Shown piece after piece: positions 12,022-21,607 of a stretch of DNA of 64,000 nt (positions are counted from its first letter, which is position 1; every line of letters begins with the position of its first letter). The stretch is from an uncultured Kangiella sp. (GTDB lineage: Bacteria > Pseudomonadota > Gammaproteobacteria > Enterobacterales > Kangiellaceae): the NCBI GenBank assembly GCA_950096615.1, contig CATNCP010000006.1, positions 1 to 64,000 on the forward strand. The letters are read 5' to 3'. Both the position numbers and the translations under genes were made by a program. Under the pieces are notes generated by a model. It did no database searches. It saw only the letters and a list, made by a program, of their open reading frames with translations, and was not told the DNA's origin.

Positions 12022-12600
12022 ATGAAATACATAGTGTTGATAACGTTACTCGTCTCAGTAATGCATTATTCTAGAGGGGAGCAATTACACGAAAATTTGA
12101 TGATGCAAAGCCGTATTTATACCGAAGGTTATTATAGATACTTTGATTTAAACTCAAGCAGCAACCACGACTTATATTTTTTACAGACTGGAACTGCAAA
12201 TTCAGAAACAAAGCTGTATTTATATAACTTTAAGGATAAAAAAATAGATGGTTTACATTCTCTAGGAAAGCCATTTAAGGACCAGTTCTATGATATTCTC
12301 AAAACCTCACCAAAATTAATGTTTGCCGAAGCAGCTAATCTAATTGAAGTAGAAAAATTTGAGTTTAATAGTTCAAACTGCTCAGAAGCATTTGAAATGC
12401 TTAGTTATATAAATCTCCCCTACGATGCGGAGGAAGTAAAACCTCTTGAAATCAAGTTTGACGCGCCGAGTTATATTGTTCAACAGAGAAGGGGAAGAGA
12501 GGAGCTCATGATTGAGACGATATCCACACATATTAGCTCTGTGACTATAGTTAAAGAACTACTAGCAGTAAATAAGTTACTTGATGGATGTATAAAATAA
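12022..12600 (+). CDS. hypothetical exported protein
   Basis: Signal peptide-like N-terminus; AT-rich. Confidence 0.5.
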   Translation: MKYIVLITLLVSVMHYSRGEQLHENLMMQSRIYTEGYYRYFDLNSSSNHDLYFLQTGTANSETKLYLYNFKDKKIDGLHSLGKPFKDQFYDILKTSPKLMFAEAANLIEVEKFEFNSSNCSEAFEMLSYINLPYDAEEVKPLEIKFDAPSYIVQQRRGREELMIETISTHISSVTIVKELLAVNKLLDGCIK

Positions 12601-12712
12601 TAAAGCCAAACCATTGCTATAAAGAAGATTACTGTGTAGTAAATGCAGTCAGCTCAATGGAAATAGAAAGAAATTGTGTGCTGGCCCAATATTTATAGGT
12701 AGAGGTAACGAT

Positions 12713-13228
12713 ATGAGATATTTTGTTATTACTATACTTTTGATTAACTCTTTAGGTTGCGTTGCTGATCCTAATGTTATTTTTTTGTCAAAGGATGAAT
12801 TGGAGTCAAGCTCAAGCGCTCCTGATAATGAAAGTATAAAAGTCGATATGATGCGCAAGCTAATTCTAGAGTCCAATTTTCATAATGGTGAAATTGTTGA
12901 CTACTATTATGGTTGTGACAATTTAAAGACTATGGAGCCGAAAACGTTTTTTGTAAGCAGCCAATCAATGGCACAATTGTCAGGAGTTTACGATGTATTT
13001 GATTGGGGGGTTATTTCGGAAACAACTTGTAAGAGTACAGTTAACTTTAACGATCTTTCGATGAATGAATTATGGCTACAGTCATGTGCCCAGGCTTCAG
13101 TTCTATCCTTAATATCAAATATGGAAGACAGGCATGAAGTGGATAAGAAAATTGATTATGCGCAATGGTGTATTCTCAAAAGCGATAAAGGTCAAATGAC
13201 TATAAAGCAGCTTGTTAAGTTTCGATAG
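12713..13228 (+). CDS. hypothetical lipoprotein
   Basis: MRYFVITILLINSLGCVAD lipobox; start at 12713 preferred over 12674. Confidence 0.5.
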   Translation: MRYFVITILLINSLGCVADPNVIFLSKDELESSSSAPDNESIKVDMMRKLILESNFHNGEIVDYYYGCDNLKTMEPKTFFVSSQSMAQLSGVYDVFDWGVISETTCKSTVNFNDLSMNELWLQSCAQASVLSLISNMEDRHEVDKKIDYAQWCILKSDKGQMTIKQLVKFR

Positions 13229-13374: not shown

Positions 13375-13406
13375 AAAGGGCTGTAGAGATATCTCTACAG
13401 CCCTTT
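13375..13406 (-). terminator. intrinsic terminator, 32-bp perfect palindrome (original downstream terminator of tRNA-Met)
   Basis: AAAGGGCTGTAGAGAT|ATCTCTACAGCCCTTT, then CTTTT on the minus strand. Confidence 0.7.
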
Positions 13407-13456
13407 ATATATGGTAGCTATGGGTGGACTTGAACCACCGACCCCAGCATTATGAA
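13406..13456. repeat. attL: 51-bp direct repeat, partial tRNA-Met 3' half
   Basis: Identical to 21525..21575; contains the tRNA-Met 3' half from anticodon loop to CCA. Confidence 0.93.
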
Positions 13457-13596
13457 AGCGATCTGGTCATGAATCTGTATGAAATTTAATCAATCTAATT
13501 TCTTTGTAAATCGCTATAAAATCAATAAAAACAATGCTTTATAAAGATGTCTTGTTTCATGGGTGTTCATCTTTTATTCAGCTAAATTCATCTATA

Positions 13597-13633: not shown

Positions 13634-14875
13634 GTGAAAAAACGGATAACCAAGGCATTAGTAGAAGAATTAGAGCCAAAACCCCGTCCTTATGAAGTGC
13701 ATGATGATGAGATGACAGGGCTGTTAGTTAGGGTTCAACCAACTGGCAAAAAGAGCTATTACTTTACCTATAGAAACTCACAAAACCTTAGAAGAAGAAT
13801 TAGGCTTGGTACGGTCGATAACATGACGCCAGCTAATGCCAGATCGGTTGCTCAACAAAGATACTCAGACATCATGAAAGGGATTGATGTTCAGAGTGAA
13901 AAGGTTAAGCAAAGAAAGGAAGCCGAAGCTACAAAAAATAGAAGGCTTGGTGCGTTTATTGATGAACTGTATGAGCCTTGGATATTAACCCACCATAAAT
14001 ACGGTAAAGGCACTATGTCCTTAATCCGTTCGCGTTTTGCTTGCTTCATGAATACCCCGTTAGAAGAGATAACTGTAAGAAGGGTTGAGGCATGGCGTAA
14101 AGATCGTTTGGGCGACGGCATCAAGCCGACCACAGTTAATAGGCAAGTCGCTTCTCTTAGAGGTTTGCTGACTAAAGCAGTTGAATGGGAAGTTATCTCT
14201 GAGCATCCCTTACAAAAGCTTAAGGCATTAAAAACGGGTACTACCCCATTAGTGCGGTACTTGTCACCCGGTGAAGAAACCCGGTTATATAGGGTACTTA
14301 GTGACCGGGATACCGCATTAAAAGAAGAGCGTCAAAGGGGTAATGAATGGCGTAAACAAAGAAACTACCCCTTGTTACCCGATCTAACACCCCATGCTTA
14401 TGGGGATCGAATGTCTCCAATGATTATTTTATCGCTTAAGACCGGGTTAAGACGCGGTGAGTTGTTCGCTTTAACATGGCATGACGTAGACATGAATAAC
14501 CGGGTTTTAACCGTAAGAGCAGAGAATGCTAAGTCTAGTAGAACCCGTCATATACCGCTTAATAATACCGCATACACCGCTTTAAAAGCATGGCATGAGC
14601 AATGCGATAAAAGTAATCCTTTAGTATTTCCATCCCATAACGGAACGAAACTAACAAATGTTAAGAAGTCATGGGCTTCCATACTAAAGCAAGCAGAGAT
14701 ACCTAACTTTAGGTGGCATGACATGAGGCATGACTTTGCCTCAAAACTGGTTATGAATGGCGTACCGCTTAATACGGTGCGGGAGCTATGCGGTCATGCT
14801 GACATGAATACAACATTAAGATACGCACACCTAGCACCAGAGCATAGGGCTGATGCGGTAGCAACATTAGGTTAA
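13634..14875 (+). CDS. tyrosine-type site-specific integrase
   Basis: Arm-binding N-domain; TGLRRGELFALTW and WHDMRHDFASKLVMNGVPLNTVRELCGHADMNTTLRYAHL catalytic motifs; GTG start. Confidence 0.95.
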   Translation: MKKRITKALVEELEPKPRPYEVHDDEMTGLLVRVQPTGKKSYYFTYRNSQNLRRRIRLGTVDNMTPANARSVAQQRYSDIMKGIDVQSEKVKQRKEAEATKNRRLGAFIDELYEPWILTHHKYGKGTMSLIRSRFACFMNTPLEEITVRRVEAWRKDRLGDGIKPTTVNRQVASLRGLLTKAVEWEVISEHPLQKLKALKTGTTPLVRYLSPGEETRLYRVLSDRDTALKEERQRGNEWRKQRNYPLLPDLTPHAYGDRMSPMIILSLKTGLRRGELFALTWHDVDMNNRVLTVRAENAKSSRTRHIPLNNTAYTALKAWHEQCDKSNPLVFPSHNGTKLTNVKKSWASILKQAEIPNFRWHDMRHDFASKLVMNGVPLNTVRELCGHADMNTTLRYAHLAPEHRADAVATLG

Positions 14876-14887
14876 ATAGGAGGATAT

Positions 14888-15559
14888 GTGAATAAGAAAA
14901 TTGATAATCCGCTGGAAGTCTTTGGGCAAACTTTAGATAAGTTCTATGAAACTAGTTATAACCAAGCTAAAGATAGATATGAAGAATATACCAACAACTC
15001 TAGTTTATTTGTGCAAAGAGTGGCTAATTATTTTAAAGCTGATACATGGCTTATTGATAGAGAAGCTATACCGTTGTTAATGGGCGTTATACCAACTGAC
15101 TGGCCTAGTTTAAGAAAAGACTTTTATACAGAGGACGTAAAAAAATGTATAAAGTCGGATTATTTAACTAGCTTGAAAGTCTTAAATCCAGAGGCTAAGC
15201 TCTCTGACTGGCGAATTAAGAAAGAGGACTTCATAGATTGGGTAGAGGCTAAAGAATTCCCTAAACCTAGAGTGTTTAGCGGGGCAATAAAAGAGTATTT
15301 ACAGAAAGCTAGTACAAGCCATATCAAGCCAAGAAAAGCAAAGAAATACTCAGAGGATCGCGAGTTAATGTTTCGAGCCGTTGTTGCAGTTTTGGTTAAG
15401 TTCCCAGAGCAGTGCAAGACTGCTGGAAAAGTAAGTGCGCCTAAAGTAGCTAAGGTTATAGATGAAAAGTCTTTAATATGGTGGCCTGATGGAGAAATTC
15501 CATTTAATCAACAGACTATGGCAAGGCACATTAGAGATGCAATAAGCACTCTTGAATAG
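14888..15559 (+). CDS. hypothetical element protein
   Basis: 223-aa ORF with AGGAGG RBS and GTG start immediately after int. Confidence 0.7.
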   Translation: MNKKIDNPLEVFGQTLDKFYETSYNQAKDRYEEYTNNSSLFVQRVANYFKADTWLIDREAIPLLMGVIPTDWPSLRKDFYTEDVKKCIKSDYLTSLKVLNPEAKLSDWRIKKEDFIDWVEAKEFPKPRVFSGAIKEYLQKASTSHIKPRKAKKYSEDRELMFRAVVAVLVKFPEQCKTAGKVSAPKVAKVIDEKSLIWWPDGEIPFNQQTMARHIRDAISTLE

Positions 15560-15655: not shown

Positions 15656-15862
15656 ATGAATCAAAATTCACGAGAATCATTATTAACCCCTAAAGAGGTT
15701 TCTGAAATCTTAGGGGTTACTGAACACACCTTAGCAGTATGGCGTTGTGAGAACCGCTATCCATTGCCTTATATCAAAGTAGGGCGGTATATACGCTATA
15801 GAAGCAAAGACTTATCAACCTTCCTTGATAATCAAACAGTACAAGGAGGTTATGATGCCTAA
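15656..15862 (+). CDS. AlpA/excisionase-like helix-turn-helix protein
   Basis: LLTPKEVSEILGVTEHTLAVWRCENRYPLPYIKVGRYIRYRSKDLSTFL, MerR/AlpA HTH_17 type. Confidence 0.85.
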   Translation: MNQNSRESLLTPKEVSEILGVTEHTLAVWRCENRYPLPYIKVGRYIRYRSKDLSTFLDNQTVQGGYDA

Positions 15863-16832
15863 TCAACATATCCCTACTACTAACCGAGAAGCAGAAGAGT
15901 TTGATGGTAATTGGGAAAAGGCTGAGCATGATATTGCACCAGCATTTAAAGTCTCGAAGATTGGTGAGTTCTTAAAAAAGAAGATACCACCTAGAGAGTT
16001 ACTATTAGCACCATGGCTACCAAGACAAGGTTTAGCAATGGTTTATGCACCAAGGGGAGTAGGTAAAACACACTTTGCTTTAGAAGTAGCTGTGGCACTA
16101 GCTACTGGTGGCGAGTTCTTAGGTTGGAAAGCACCTAAAGCAGTCAAAGTTTTATATATTGATGGCGAGATGCCTTCTGCTGACCTACAAACAAGACTAA
16201 AACAAATACAAAAACGTACCGGGTCAATACCAGGTGATAATTTGCGAATAATGACACCGGATGAGCAAAGCGGGGCAATGCCTGATCTATCAGATCCTTG
16301 CTCTTTAGCACGACTAAAACATTTTACAGATGTAGATCTAGTTGTTGTTGATAACATTTCAACGCTTTGCCGTACTGGTAACGAGAACGAGGCTGAAAGT
16401 TGGAGAATAACTGAAGGGTGGGCGTTAAGACTAAGAGCTGAGGGTAAGTCAGTATTGTTTGTACATCACTCAGGAAAGGCTGGAGGACAGCGTGGTACAA
16501 GTAAACGAGAAGATACGTTAGATACAGTTATAGCACTAAAGCACCCAGATGATTATAAACAGTCTGATGGAGCACGGTTTGAAGTCCACTTTGAGAAAGC
16601 TAGAGGCTTTAGTGGCGAAGATGCTGAGCCAATAGAGGCAATGTTAGCTATTGAAGAGAAAGAAGGCTATCAGTGGAAATGGCAAAGAAAAGAGGATGCT
16701 GTATTAGGTAAAATTAAGAAGCTACACAGCGAAGGACTGAATCAAACTGAAATAGCTGAACAACTTGGTGTTAGTAAAGCAACAATGAGTAGGAAAATGC
16801 AATATTTAAAAGCCAAAGGGAAGTTAGACTAA
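15852..16832 (+). CDS. RepA/RecA-fold AAA ATPase (plasmid RepA-like helicase) with C-terminal HTH
   Basis: MVYAPRGVGKTHFALEVAVAL, VLYIDGEMP, LVVVDNIST, FVHHSGKAGGQRGTS; C-terminal GLNQTEIAEQLGVSKATMSRKMQYLK HTH; AAGGAGG RBS. Confidence 0.85.
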   Translation: MMPNQHIPTTNREAEEFDGNWEKAEHDIAPAFKVSKIGEFLKKKIPPRELLLAPWLPRQGLAMVYAPRGVGKTHFALEVAVALATGGEFLGWKAPKAVKVLYIDGEMPSADLQTRLKQIQKRTGSIPGDNLRIMTPDEQSGAMPDLSDPCSLARLKHFTDVDLVVVDNISTLCRTGNENEAESWRITEGWALRLRAEGKSVLFVHHSGKAGGQRGTSKREDTLDTVIALKHPDDYKQSDGARFEVHFEKARGFSGEDAEPIEAMLAIEEKEGYQWKWQRKEDAVLGKIKKLHSEGLNQTEIAEQLGVSKATMSRKMQYLKAKGKLD

Positions 16833-17194
16833 GTTTCATAGTTTCACTTGGATAGAAAGAAACAATGCAACTGCGCATTAATTGTACTATTGTAAAAAAA
16901 TGTGACCTAGTATACATTGTGTGCAGGGTAGCAAAACGAATGAAGTAAATTAAAAAAACTACTTGTAGCCACTGTAAGAACTCTCCAGTAGAGAGAGTGC
17001 AATCATAAATTAGGCTAAAATAGATAGGGTAGAAAAAAAACTGCAATATTATAAGGATGAGATGGTTTTAGAAAGAGCCACCACTTAAATAAAGCCATTA
17101 GTATTGATATAGATATAAATAGAGAAAGATTATTAAATTAATACCAAGTCTAAGGAAGGGGCTTAATTTAAATAATAAAAGAGGAAGTTAAGAA

Positions 17195-19300
17195 GTGCTA
17201 AGTAAAAACAAACTAACAAGTTTATATGAGCTTTATGGATTTGAAGTAAAGGGAACTATCAATAAAAACATTATGGTTTTCGCATTACACTCTGGACATT
17301 ACTACAATGCAGACGTTGTTCCACTAACCAATGATGTAAAAGATAATGAGTTAGATGAAGTTTTTAATTCATTTAAAAAATCTGGATATGCTTGCAAGGT
17401 AAGAAAGTATGAAAGTATAGAAAAAGCAGAAAAGGAGTTGTTCAAGGGTTTTTTTAATCTGGATGTAACAAGGGCGAAACTAAAAAAAACTTATGAAGAA
17501 TATACAAAATCAGTAGTTTCTGTTTACTCAAATGACGCAGAATATAAGTATATAAACAGCAAGTACTACATTAATGACAAGGAAGCAAGTGGTACGCTTA
17601 TAGAAAATGTTGGTAAGAAAATAAGTTCAAAAGGTTCCGTTCTGTTTTTGATAGAAGCTGCAGCCGGATATGGTAAAACTAGTTGCGCATTTGAACTGGT
17701 TAATTATATTTTAGAAGCCTATAAAAATACCATTCCCCTTTTTACCGAACTTTCAAGGAATAGGAAGGCAAAAATATTTAGATATGTATTGCTTGACGAA
17801 ATAGAAAGAAGCTTTCCACTGTTGCGTTCTAGCTTGGTAAGCGAGCAAATTAAGCAAGGTAATGTTCCTGTTATTCTAGATGGATTTGATGAGCTTTTGC
17901 ATGAAAATGACGATTACACTGATTATGAAAAAAGTGAGTCTATGCTGGAAACTATCAGCCAGTATCTAGTTGATGATGCAAAAGTAATACTAACAACAAG
18001 AAGAACTGCAATATTTGATGGAGATAAGTTCCATGAATGGATTGAGGAGCATAAAAATGATTTTGATGTAGTAAGAATTCGCATTGATCAACCATCTGTG
18101 AAAGACTGGCTATCAGAAGAAAGATATGAATTAATCCAGCAAGCAGGATTTCCAATTAAAAACCTGTCAAACCCAGTATTACTTTCGTTCCTTAGATGCA
18201 TACCTGATAAAGACTATAAAAAGGTAATAAAAGACACAACAAAAATTGTGGATAGATACTTTGAATCAATGTTGGATAGGGAAATGACTAGACAAGATTT
18301 AAAAATGACACCAGAAGGACAGTACGCGGTACTTAAATCACTAGCTAAGGATATGATCGATTATAACTATACTTCAGAGTCAAAGGAAAATATTGCAGAG
18401 GTAATTCTTCAGGAAAACCAAGCATTATTAGAAATCACAAGAAAGAATTACTCTGCGGATACTAGGCCTACTTTGGATGAGTTAGTAAATAAATTGTCAA
18501 ATCATGCTTACTTAGATAAACAAACTACGGACAACAATATTGGTTTCGTGAATGAATTTGTATTGGGCAACTTTAGTGCTGATATTATGCAGGAGCATCC
18601 AGAAAATGAATGGTCAGGTGAAGGAACATTTATAGAACCTGCTGTTCTGTCATACGTTCCTAGAAGTGACGAAGAAAAAAAGAAACTTTGGAATGCTATA
18701 AAGTTTGCAAATAATTTTTTAGATGTTAACGAACAAATTCTGAATGATATTAGACTGAATAATAAATTAACTATCGATATTCTTGGGGAAGGTGTTAATG
18801 AAATAAACTTTGAAGGTTTAGCTGTTGCAGAAAACACCTATATAAAAAATAGTGTTTTTTCAAATTGCATCTTTAGAAATGTCACTTTTAATTTAGAAAA
18901 CATCACGGGATCTTCATTTGTTGAATGCTTATTCTATGATTGCGAAGTGGAAGGAATTGAAGAAAAGCCAGATATATATTTCTATGGTTGTACCTCAAAC
19001 AATGAAATTTTGAACCAAATATTTGATGAAGATGTTGAAACTGACTATAAGTCTGATGAGGTTGATGATTGTGACATTTTTGTATTAAGAGCTTTTAAGC
19101 CTGTTGGTAGTGAGAAAATACATAAGCATCGCCCAATTAAAGCTATTTGCTCTAACCATAATAAGTATAGTCCTAAACAAATATTTAAATCTATACAAAA
19201 ACTGAAGAAAATGGAATATCTTCTTACCCCAGATAAGAAGTCTTTTGTTGAGTTTAACTTTGAGTATGTATCACAAATCAAAGAAATGCTAGGTGAATAG
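17195..19300 (+). CDS. NACHT/STAND-type NTPase with pentapeptide-repeat-like C-terminal region
   Basis: Walker A EAAAGYGKTSCAFELV, Walker B VPVILDGFDELLHE, sensor-like KVILTTRRTAIFDG; later NSVFSNCIFRNVTFNLENITGSSFVECLFYDCEVEG. Confidence 0.8.
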   Translation: MLSKNKLTSLYELYGFEVKGTINKNIMVFALHSGHYYNADVVPLTNDVKDNELDEVFNSFKKSGYACKVRKYESIEKAEKELFKGFFNLDVTRAKLKKTYEEYTKSVVSVYSNDAEYKYINSKYYINDKEASGTLIENVGKKISSKGSVLFLIEAAAGYGKTSCAFELVNYILEAYKNTIPLFTELSRNRKAKIFRYVLLDEIERSFPLLRSSLVSEQIKQGNVPVILDGFDELLHENDDYTDYEKSESMLETISQYLVDDAKVILTTRRTAIFDGDKFHEWIEEHKNDFDVVRIRIDQPSVKDWLSEERYELIQQAGFPIKNLSNPVLLSFLRCIPDKDYKKVIKDTTKIVDRYFESMLDREMTRQDLKMTPEGQYAVLKSLAKDMIDYNYTSESKENIAEVILQENQALLEITRKNYSADTRPTLDELVNKLSNHAYLDKQTTDNNIGFVNEFVLGNFSADIMQEHPENEWSGEGTFIEPAVLSYVPRSDEEKKKLWNAIKFANNFLDVNEQILNDIRLNNKLTIDILGEGVNEINFEGLAVAENTYIKNSVFSNCIFRNVTFNLENITGSSFVECLFYDCEVEGIEEKPDIYFYGCTSNNEILNQIFDEDVETDYKSDEVDDCDIFVLRAFKPVGSEKIHKHRPIKAICSNHNKYSPKQIFKSIQKLKKMEYLLTPDKKSFVEFNFEYVSQIKEMLGE

Positions 19301-19301
19301 A

Positions 19302-20177
19302 ATGTATAATAATAATGCTGTGGCTAGGCAGATACAAAATGATATCGAGCGTGAGTTGAGTAAGTTAGGTTTGCTGTGTAGAGTTTTTTCTCGACAAAAG
19401 TCCGAGCAATCATTAATGAAGAAAATTAATAAAGAAAAGGGGAAATACAGCTTAACTGGGAAGAAAATACAGGATATGGTTGGTGTAAGGGTTGTACTAT
19501 ACTTTCTAGACGATATAGAAATAGCTTGCAAAAAATTAGACAAGGTTTTCAAAAAAAACTCTGAGTCAATTGATGAAGCGTCTACTGACAACTTTGGTCC
19601 GACGAGGTGTAATTATATATACTACTTACCAGAAAAGGTTTTGCCTGATTGCCAGTTCTTGAAAACCGGTATGCCTATTGATAATACATTTGAAGTTCAA
19701 TTTAGAACAACGCTTTCTGAAGGGTGGCATGAAGTAGAACATGACTTAAGGTATAAATGTAAAGAAGACTGGAATAGTTATGATGATTACTCCAGGGCTT
19801 TAAATGGTATATATGCTACCTTAGAAACCTCTGATTGGAGTATGTTACAAATATTTGAATCTTTAGCTTATAACCATTATAAAAAGAAGCATATAGAAGC
19901 TTTGCTCAGGAGTAAGTTAAGGTTAAGACTGCAAGATACTCTAACGGAAGATTTAAAATCAATTATACATAATAAAAATTTGTATAAAGAGATATATAGG
20001 TTAGACAGAAAAAAAATCTTAAGCAAGCTTCTAGTGCATAATTTCTCGATTCCAATAACTATGGATAATATCATTTATGTGATGAACTTTTTCTTTTTTG
20101 AAGACCCTGACATTTCCGAGGCCATGCCTGTAGCATTAAAAGGAGACTTTGAGAGTTTGGTAAGTAGAGTGGCTTAA
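19302..20177 (+). CDS. RelA/SpoT-fold nucleotide pyrophosphokinase (small alarmone synthetase-like)
   Basis: RVFSRQKSEQSLMKKI, IQDMVGVRVVLYFLDD, FEVQFRTTLSEGWHEVEHDLRYK match synthetase core motifs. ATG 19302 (GTG 19293 possible), coupled to the upstream stop. Confidence 0.85.
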   Translation: MYNNNAVARQIQNDIERELSKLGLLCRVFSRQKSEQSLMKKINKEKGKYSLTGKKIQDMVGVRVVLYFLDDIEIACKKLDKVFKKNSESIDEASTDNFGPTRCNYIYYLPEKVLPDCQFLKTGMPIDNTFEVQFRTTLSEGWHEVEHDLRYKCKEDWNSYDDYSRALNGIYATLETSDWSMLQIFESLAYNHYKKKHIEALLRSKLRLRLQDTLTEDLKSIIHNKNLYKEIYRLDRKKILSKLLVHNFSIPITMDNIIYVMNFFFFEDPDISEAMPVALKGDFESLVSRVA

Positions 20178-20349: not shown

Positions 20350-21003
20350 CTAATCCGGCATAATTTGTAAGTGCTCCCCCACAGCCTCTAATGTTTTTAA
20401 ATTTTTAATATTTACCGCATCAAAGCCTTGACGTAATTGTGTGCGCATAAGGTGACTAAAAGCATCTGTATTTGTGAAATCAGGATCTAACCACATACTT
20501 AAGTCGCTTTCAGGTATCATCAACGGCATAGCTTTTTTGTGAATATCCGCTAACTTATTGTGAGGTGGGATGGTAATCATAGAGGCAGAATAAACGGGGT
20601 TTTCAGGTTCGCCCCATTGCTTAAATAGCCCTCCAAAGTATATTGGGCTTTCATCTACAGGTTTAAGTAAGTGATAGACTTTATTCATCCCTTCCACAAA
20701 CCCACTAGCGGGAATTAGACATCTAGTTTCACGGTAAGCCTTTGTAAAAGACTTTTTAAACCCTTTACCTTCATACCATCGGCTGTTAAAGGAAGTGTAC
20801 TTGCTAGCCTTCCATTCTCCTGACTTATTCTCTAATAAAAACTGCCACATTGCTTTAATGACATTGTTAGCCTGACCGTCATTCATGACTATCTGTACTG
20901 GCTTATAACAACGAAATGTTCCTAGCTCTAATGGTACTTGTAAATCCAGAGTTTTCTCGACCTTTTGGGCAGGTTTTTTTGTCAGTTCAATTAGCCCACA
21001 CAT
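20350..21003 (-). CDS. SOS response-associated peptidase (SRAP/YedK/HMCES family)
   Basis: MCG N-terminus, RCLIPASGFVEG, ASMITIPPHNKLADIHKKAMPLMI. Confidence 0.88.
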   Translation of the reverse strand: MCGLIELTKKPAQKVEKTLDLQVPLELGTFRCYKPVQIVMNDGQANNVIKAMWQFLLENKSGEWKASKYTSFNSRWYEGKGFKKSFTKAYRETRCLIPASGFVEGMNKVYHLLKPVDESPIYFGGLFKQWGEPENPVYSASMITIPPHNKLADIHKKAMPLMIPESDLSMWLDPDFTNTDAFSHLMRTQLRQGFDAVNIKNLKTLEAVGEHLQIMPD

Positions 21004-21524: not shown

Positions 21525-21575
21525 TATATATGGTAGCTATGGGTGGACTTGAACCACCGACCCCAGCATTATGAA
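21525..21575. repeat. attR: 51-bp direct repeat inside tRNA-Met
   Basis: Identical to 13406..13456. Confidence 0.93.
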
Positions 21576-21607
21576 TGCTGTGCTCTAACCAGCTGAGCTA
21601 CATAGCC
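21531..21607 (-). tRNA. tRNA-Met (CAT)
   Basis: ggctatgtagctcagctggttagagcacagcattCATaatgctggggtcggtggttcaagtccacccatagctacca; cloverleaf with encoded CCA. Confidence 0.96.

Follow-up and report, generated by a model that had tools for sequence, protein, structure and literature searches.

Positions 17195 to 20177 of the window, the 64,000-nt stretch of DNA from an uncultured Kangiella sp. that was analyzed, encode a NACHT-type STAND NTPase followed at once by a RelA/SpoT-fold (RSH-fold) synthetase. These two genes appear to constitute a sensor-effector module, most likely for defense against phages or other mobile elements, that is carried as exchangeable cargo and whose synthetase is activated in trans. 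We assign this reading a probability of roughly 0.62. The pair looks like an undescribed anti-phage system. If this interpretation is true, NLR-type sensing and alarmone-type enzymes are joined in one portable operon that is found across bacterial phyla.

The two genes as one conserved unit

The NTPase gene (17195-19300, + strand) starts with GTG and encodes 701 amino acids. Its TAG stop codon (19298-19300) is separated by 1 nt (19301) from the ATG of the synthetase gene (19302-20177, + strand; 291 aa), and an alternative in-frame GTG start at 19293 overlaps the end of the NTPase gene. The first-pass annotation had described this arrangement, with the synthetase ATG at 2 nt past the last base of the upstream stop and the overlapping GTG, and its positions and strand for the open reading frames and NTPase motifs are likewise correct.

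Comparison with related loci shows that the NTPase and synthetase genes are one conserved unit. Searching 85,462 species genomes with an alignment of the synthetase produced 372 relatives, of which the best 80 were inspected; because these are the highest scoring, they are a biased sample. An NTPase of the same type (635-740 aa) lies directly upstream in 70 of these best 80 of 372, and the remaining 10 consist of three truncated or broken NTPases, one contig edge, and six orphans. The best 80 span Pseudomonadota, Bacteroidota, Bacillota, Campylobacterota, and Myxococcota. The gene distance is at most 20 nt in 69 of the 70 pairs, often with a 4-nt overlap. The distance matrices of the two proteins are also correlated (Mantel r 0.86), with none of 2000 permutations giving a value as high.

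Conservation of the pair in unrelated elements, which had been raised earlier as a point to check, is observed as well. Pairs are found on Klebsiella, Yersinia, and Pantoea plasmids, in prophage-like contigs, and in an Escherichia coli island integrated at ssrA, and all six plasmids with the NTPase also carry the synthetase. Scans of viral contigs that started from each gene returned the identical seven contigs; with a single synthetase sequence as query no viral contig was recovered, and it was the synthetase alignment that gave the seven. No NTPase homologue was detected in INPHARED phage records. Chance adjacency of the two genes was set aside in light of the pairing frequency in the best 80 of 372 relatives, and the possibility that the pair is mere operon noise of the island was also considered and set aside.

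Protein domains and an altered acceptor site

The assignment of the upstream protein to the NACHT clade of STAND NTPases, proposed in the first-pass annotation, is supported by sequence motifs and by a predicted structure. The Walker A (AAAGYGKTS, aa 155-163; 17657-17683), Walker B (VILDGFDELL, aa 226-235; 17870-17899), and sensor-1 type TTRR (aa 267-270; 17993-18004) motifs all lie on the + strand. Among 74 homologues, G158, G160, K161, and T162 of Walker A, the D229-G-F-D-E233 segment of Walker B, and T267 and R269 are invariant, and the NACHT-clade signatures (Walker A GxxxxGK[ST], Walker B hhhDGhDE, the sensor-1 Arg, and the Pro of the NP-hhh motif) are all present and invariant. The Pfam NACHT profile gives the window NTPase 19.4 bits versus a cut-off of 26.7, and it matches 44 of 47 NTPase homologues at E≤0.01 (best 6.7e-9). 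An AlphaFold2 model (pLDDT 86.2, pTM 0.68) compared with the PDB by Foldseek has the NACHT domain of NLRP3 as its top match (E 8.5e-9), followed by ORC/Cdc6 and the plant resistosome ZAR1, although whole-chain TM-scores of these matches are low.

At its N terminus, the NTPase carries an NA-iREase2 domain (aa 6-127; 17210-17575, + strand; Pfam PF22723, E 2.1e-33), which is found in all 47 homologues and which we propose to be an adaptor. Pfam names this family "NACHT-associated inactive Restriction Endonuclease 2," and the homologue alignment contains no conserved D/E/K catalytic set in the domain (the best D/E/K/Q/H column is E79, at 78%). Because the domain is called inactive, the enzymatic effector of the pair is probably the synthetase.

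The variable C-terminal part, the proposed sensor, is rich in helices and includes a pentapeptide-repeat-like beta region (aa 547-585; 18833-18949, + strand) that is a weak match in the window protein (E 0.0066). Pentapeptide-like repeats are present in 29 of 47 homologues, and the NTPase profile matches solved pentapeptide proteins; a PDB sequence search with the NTPase itself gave only pentapeptide proteins and chance matches. Homologues share on average 52% pairwise identity in the NACHT core, compared with 32% in the N-terminal domain and 22-25% in the C-terminal regions, with 25% for the pentapeptide-like region. A conserved core coupled with a divergent C terminus is the pattern expected if the C terminus meets changing triggers. 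This pentapeptide-like region, the dead nuclease-like N terminus, and the altered G-loop described below were not part of the first-pass annotation.

The RelA/SpoT fold that had been suggested for the downstream protein is supported by Pfam (PF04607, E 3.4e-14; 53.5 bits versus a curated cut-off of 27) and by Foldseek, which matches an AlphaFold2 model (pLDDT 93.8) to RelQ/RelP (5dec, 6ex0; E 3e-7) and more weakly to CapRel (9erv, 7ztb). Nine residues are invariant in all 86 synthetase relatives: R31, K33, S37, and K41 of the ATP-donor motif RxKxxxSxxxK (19392-19424, + strand), D58, R63, and E131, Q133, and R135 of the catalytic EVQxR motif (19692-19706, + strand). By motif position, the invariant residues correspond to the ATP-donor-binding residues of FaRel2, which are R64, K66, S70, K74, R95, E145, and Q147 (PMC11782079).

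The G-loop is different. The usual FGYxSxH is replaced by F98-x-[PAV]-x-R-x-N104 (19593-19613, + strand), such that the Tyr is absent from all 86 family members, with P, A, or V at its position, and the His of SxH is replaced by an invariant Asn (N104). The register of this comparison comes from hhalign to FGY-type relatives (99.8% probability), which places Tyr opposite P100 and His opposite N104, and is ambiguous against RelQ/RelP profiles. A first simple alignment to RelQ/RelP had taken F98 as the G-loop aromatic residue; this assignment was rejected, since hhalign makes F98 the preceding F. Across the family, residue comparison shows an intact ATP-donor site coupled with an acceptor site that is changed in every member. 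The earlier likening of the enzyme to CapRel thus holds for the RSH fold and the ATP-donor residues, but does not extend to the G-loop Tyr (Y155 in CapRel), whose substitution Y155A abolishes phage protection (PMC9712102).

Given the absence of the G-loop Tyr, it would be premature to assume that the enzyme carries out either (p)ppGpp synthesis or tRNA pyrophosphorylation. Adenosine 3'-pyrophosphokinases have GxN where guanosine enzymes and RSHs have SxH (PMC12226406), and the match of N104 to this motif hints at a non-guanosine acceptor. However, of the adenosine-enzyme signatures (syn2 RYT, syn3 GxN, syn4 YH), the synthetase shares only the syn3 Asn. Its syn2 (GVR) and syn4 (EVQ-hydrophobic-R) follow the usual RSH pattern, and the adenosine reading is weak for this reason. 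On balance, the residue pattern slightly favors a non-guanosine acceptor. The retention of the ATP side and the rewiring of the acceptor side in every member make it a testable question what else the RelA fold can modify.

The loss of both Tyr and His in 86 of 86 relatives, together with the effect of Y155A in CapRel (PMC9712102), could instead mean that the synthetase has lost catalysis and acts only as a regulatory or structural partner, in which case the NTPase would be the whole defense protein. We regard this as very unlikely, because invariance of the nine catalytic and donor residues in 86 of 86 relatives is unexpected in a dead enzyme, and because the only other catalytic-type domain of the pair is "inactive" according to Pfam.

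A 609-aa homologue from Lachnospira eligens (L006:5914-7743) consists of the synthetase with a C-terminal extension of ~300 aa. An adenosine deaminase gene lies 3 nt upstream of it.

Island cargo, gene loss, and a proposed role

An 8.1-kb island integrated in a tRNA-Met gene carries the pair as cargo, which agrees with the earlier description of the pair as AT-rich and situated mid-element: GC content is about 32% in the region of the pair and about 45% on either side of this region. The island is bounded by 54-nt direct repeats that are 98% identical. The left repeat (13406-13459) is a copy of the 3' part of the tRNA, and the right repeat (21525-21578) lies within the tRNA-Met gene (21531-21607, - strand). 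Four island genes, all on the + strand, precede the pair. They encode a tyrosine integrase (13634-14875; Pfam Phage_integrase, E 1.4e-32), a backbone protein with no Pfam match that is conserved in the G007 island described below (14888-15559), an HTH_17 excisionase/AlpA-like protein (15656-15862; E 5.6e-10), and a backbone RepA-like AAA_25 ATPase with a C-terminal HTH (15825-16832; E 3.1e-31). Scans of the sequence for promoters and terminators found fewer sites than in shuffled sequence.

A gene at 20350-21003 (- strand) that matches phrog_1599, and that may encode an SRAP/YedK-type protein judging by its sequence, lies within the repeat-bounded island both here and in G007. In congeners without the island this gene is found across the tRNA-Met gene, and it is a doubtful member of the island. 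Just outside the left repeat, at 12022-13228, are two AT-rich small open reading frames with signal-like N termini.

Another genome of the genus, G007, carries an island at the same tRNA-Met with an integrase that is 99% identical. The window island matches the G007 backbone with 94% DNA identity up to position 16870, where the match stops. The slot that holds the pair here is occupied in G007 (L132:8272-13022) by a cassette encoding an MBL-fold protein of 354 aa, a Prok-E2_A+ThiF+JAB fusion of 752 aa, and another two proteins that have no Pfam match. The MBL-fold and fusion proteins match PADLOC models. Because the slot holds another conflict-type cassette with such matches, this exchange supports a defense role for the pair. 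It is the best evidence for defense that we have, and it is guilt by association. The G007 cassette looks like a ubiquitin-like conflict system, perhaps one whose layout is likewise undescribed.

In a third genome of the genus (G009), the tRNA-Met site is empty and there is no island. The NTPase is found in none of 19 same-genus genomes, and NA-iREase2 is detected in 1 of 399 genomes of a phylum-wide sample that is too sparse for counting. Type I restriction-modification genes are neighbors at some paired loci; most of the 70 paired loci adjoin ordinary genes, and thus enrichment in defense islands is modest. Taking sequence and context together, we consider it likely that the pair functions in defense.

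Synthetases of this family also occur alone. In the 48 genomes examined, NA-iREase2 is absent from all six that have an orphan synthetase, which belong to Parabacteroides, Dysgonomonas, Tannerellaceae, Prevotellaceae, and Blautia; the other 42 have one NA-iREase2 NTPase each, the exceptions being one further sub-threshold match and one gene interrupted by stop codons. The tree places orphans among paired synthetases, with four changes, and they show that the enzyme can persist without the NTPase. All orphans (L079, L080, L082, L087, L078, L089) keep the catalytic residues and the rewired G-loop, and in Bacteroidales and in Blautia they adjoin housekeeping genes.

The housekeeping neighbors of Bacteroidales orphans, and the fact that RSH-fold proteins are classical stress enzymes, would suit a non-defense role in stress or metabolic signaling, with an alarmone produced by the synthetase and adjusted by the NTPase according to a cue from the cell. 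This role appears unlikely. Two long RSH proteins (739 and 750 aa) are already present in the host, the distribution is patchy (0 of 19 congeners, 1 of 399 in the phylum-wide sample), and the pair is integrative-element cargo that is swapped in G007 and frequently decays in E. coli.

This decay was observed in the ssrA-integrated island, which carries the pair in 66-67 of 5426 E. coli genomes; the E. coli pair consists of WP_000944877.1 and WP_000282312.1, and the Klebsiella-type pair was not found in E. coli genomes. The NTPase has a frameshift at residue 347 in strain TUM3755, is 5'-deleted in H3, DLI.5a, and ML35, and is interrupted by IS2 in RM10410, and in each of these strains the synthetase is 100% identical to an intact copy. 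The 5' deletions, which remove aa 1-220, 1-235, or 1-363, may also silence the synthetase. Conversely, strains 300709, ETEC1716, and ETEC4090 have an intact NTPase and a synthetase with a premature stop or frameshift, and in further strains both genes are broken. Either gene can be lost first. In this island (L145-L159), each of the two genes has been inactivated independently at a high rate, which suggests that the pair is costly or that selection to keep it is weak.

These natural mutants bear on the possibility that the pair is a toxin-antitoxin system, in which a toxSAS-like, constitutively toxic synthetase would be countered by the NTPase as antidote. Such a system would account for an upstream partner gene with overlapping or adjacent starts and for carriage on plasmids and islands, and RSH-fold toxins are known in toxin-antitoxin pairs (PMC11782079). 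However, single-gene losses in both directions argue against the NTPase as antidote and fit a system that needs both parts, and an intact synthetase beside a broken NTPase points to an activator rather than an antidote. Synthetases in genomes that lack the NTPase, coupled with the size (700 aa) and full STAND motifs of a partner unlike known toxSAS antidotes, also make this explanation quite unlikely. The NTPase is probably the activator of the synthetase. Because roughly 1% of the complete E. coli genomes contain the pair, natural single-gene nulls included, the proposal is testable in laboratory E. coli.

Under the defense reading, the C-terminal region of the NTPase would recognize an infection signal, and the protein would bind ATP and oligomerize as is typical of the STAND class. 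The nuclease-like domain, being dead, would act as a docking adaptor, rather than as a nuclease, that turns on an otherwise quiet synthetase in trans. The activated enzyme would then move pyrophosphate from ATP to a 3'-OH, with an adenosine-type or other non-guanosine acceptor being more probable than GTP or GDP, and growth of the infected cell would stop. More tentatively, the pair might be a phage-triggered, NLR-gated RSH-fold pyrophosphokinase whose acceptor (a nucleotide, an RNA end, or another 3'-OH) is not used by described alarmone synthetases or toxSAS.

Comparison with known systems

A match to a named defense family, which the first-pass annotation had listed as a refuting outcome, was not obtained within PADLOC 2.0: neither gene has a full-length match to any of its systems. 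The NTPase gave no PADLOC family, including Avs and other named systems, at E≤0.1, and the synthetase matches the candidate PDC-S33 (E 8e-6) over residues 7-84 only. In the NCBI annotation, the two genes are named separately, by domain. A system combining NACHT and RelA/SpoT proteins was not found in the open-access papers searched, nor is one mentioned in the main text of the DefensePredictor paper.

The closest counterparts of the NTPase are bNACHT25 and bNACHT32, which share a central NACHT NTPase, a nuclease-fold N terminus, and a variable C-terminal sensor region (PMC12169576). They require an active nuclease in cis, and D48A abolishes defense (PMC12169576). In contrast, the window NTPase lacks the catalytic PD-(D/E)XK nuclease that is the hallmark of bNACHT clade 6 (bNACHT25-like); no catalytic set is conserved in its nuclease-like domain, and the next gene encodes an RSH-fold enzyme as a separate protein.

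CapRel and the toxSAS enzymes FaRel2 and PhRel2 have in common with the synthetase an RSH-fold pyrophosphokinase and the same ATP-donor residues. However, CapRel combines sensor and toxin in a single chain, and toxSAS have small antidotes, adjacent or fused, whereas the partner here is a STAND protein of ~700 aa (in 70 of the best 80 of 372 relatives) and the G-loop Tyr is missing. RelQ and RelP, the closest solved folds (5dec, 6ex0), have a GYRS.H G-loop that is absent from the synthetase, and they have no NTPase partner. Apk2 of MuF proteins resembles the synthetase in having Asn for His at syn3 (GxN versus RxN; PMC12226406). Nevertheless, Apk2 enzymes are phage-linked polymorphic toxins with IapK/Aph1 immunity and no NACHT pair, and they differ from the synthetase at syn2 and syn4.

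The N-terminal domain of the NTPase belongs to a family already catalogued in Pfam, whose PF22723 entry names the domain and makes no mention of a synthetase partner. What appears to be new is a putative STAND-type defense system with an RSH-fold effector that would act in trans and has an unusual acceptor site.
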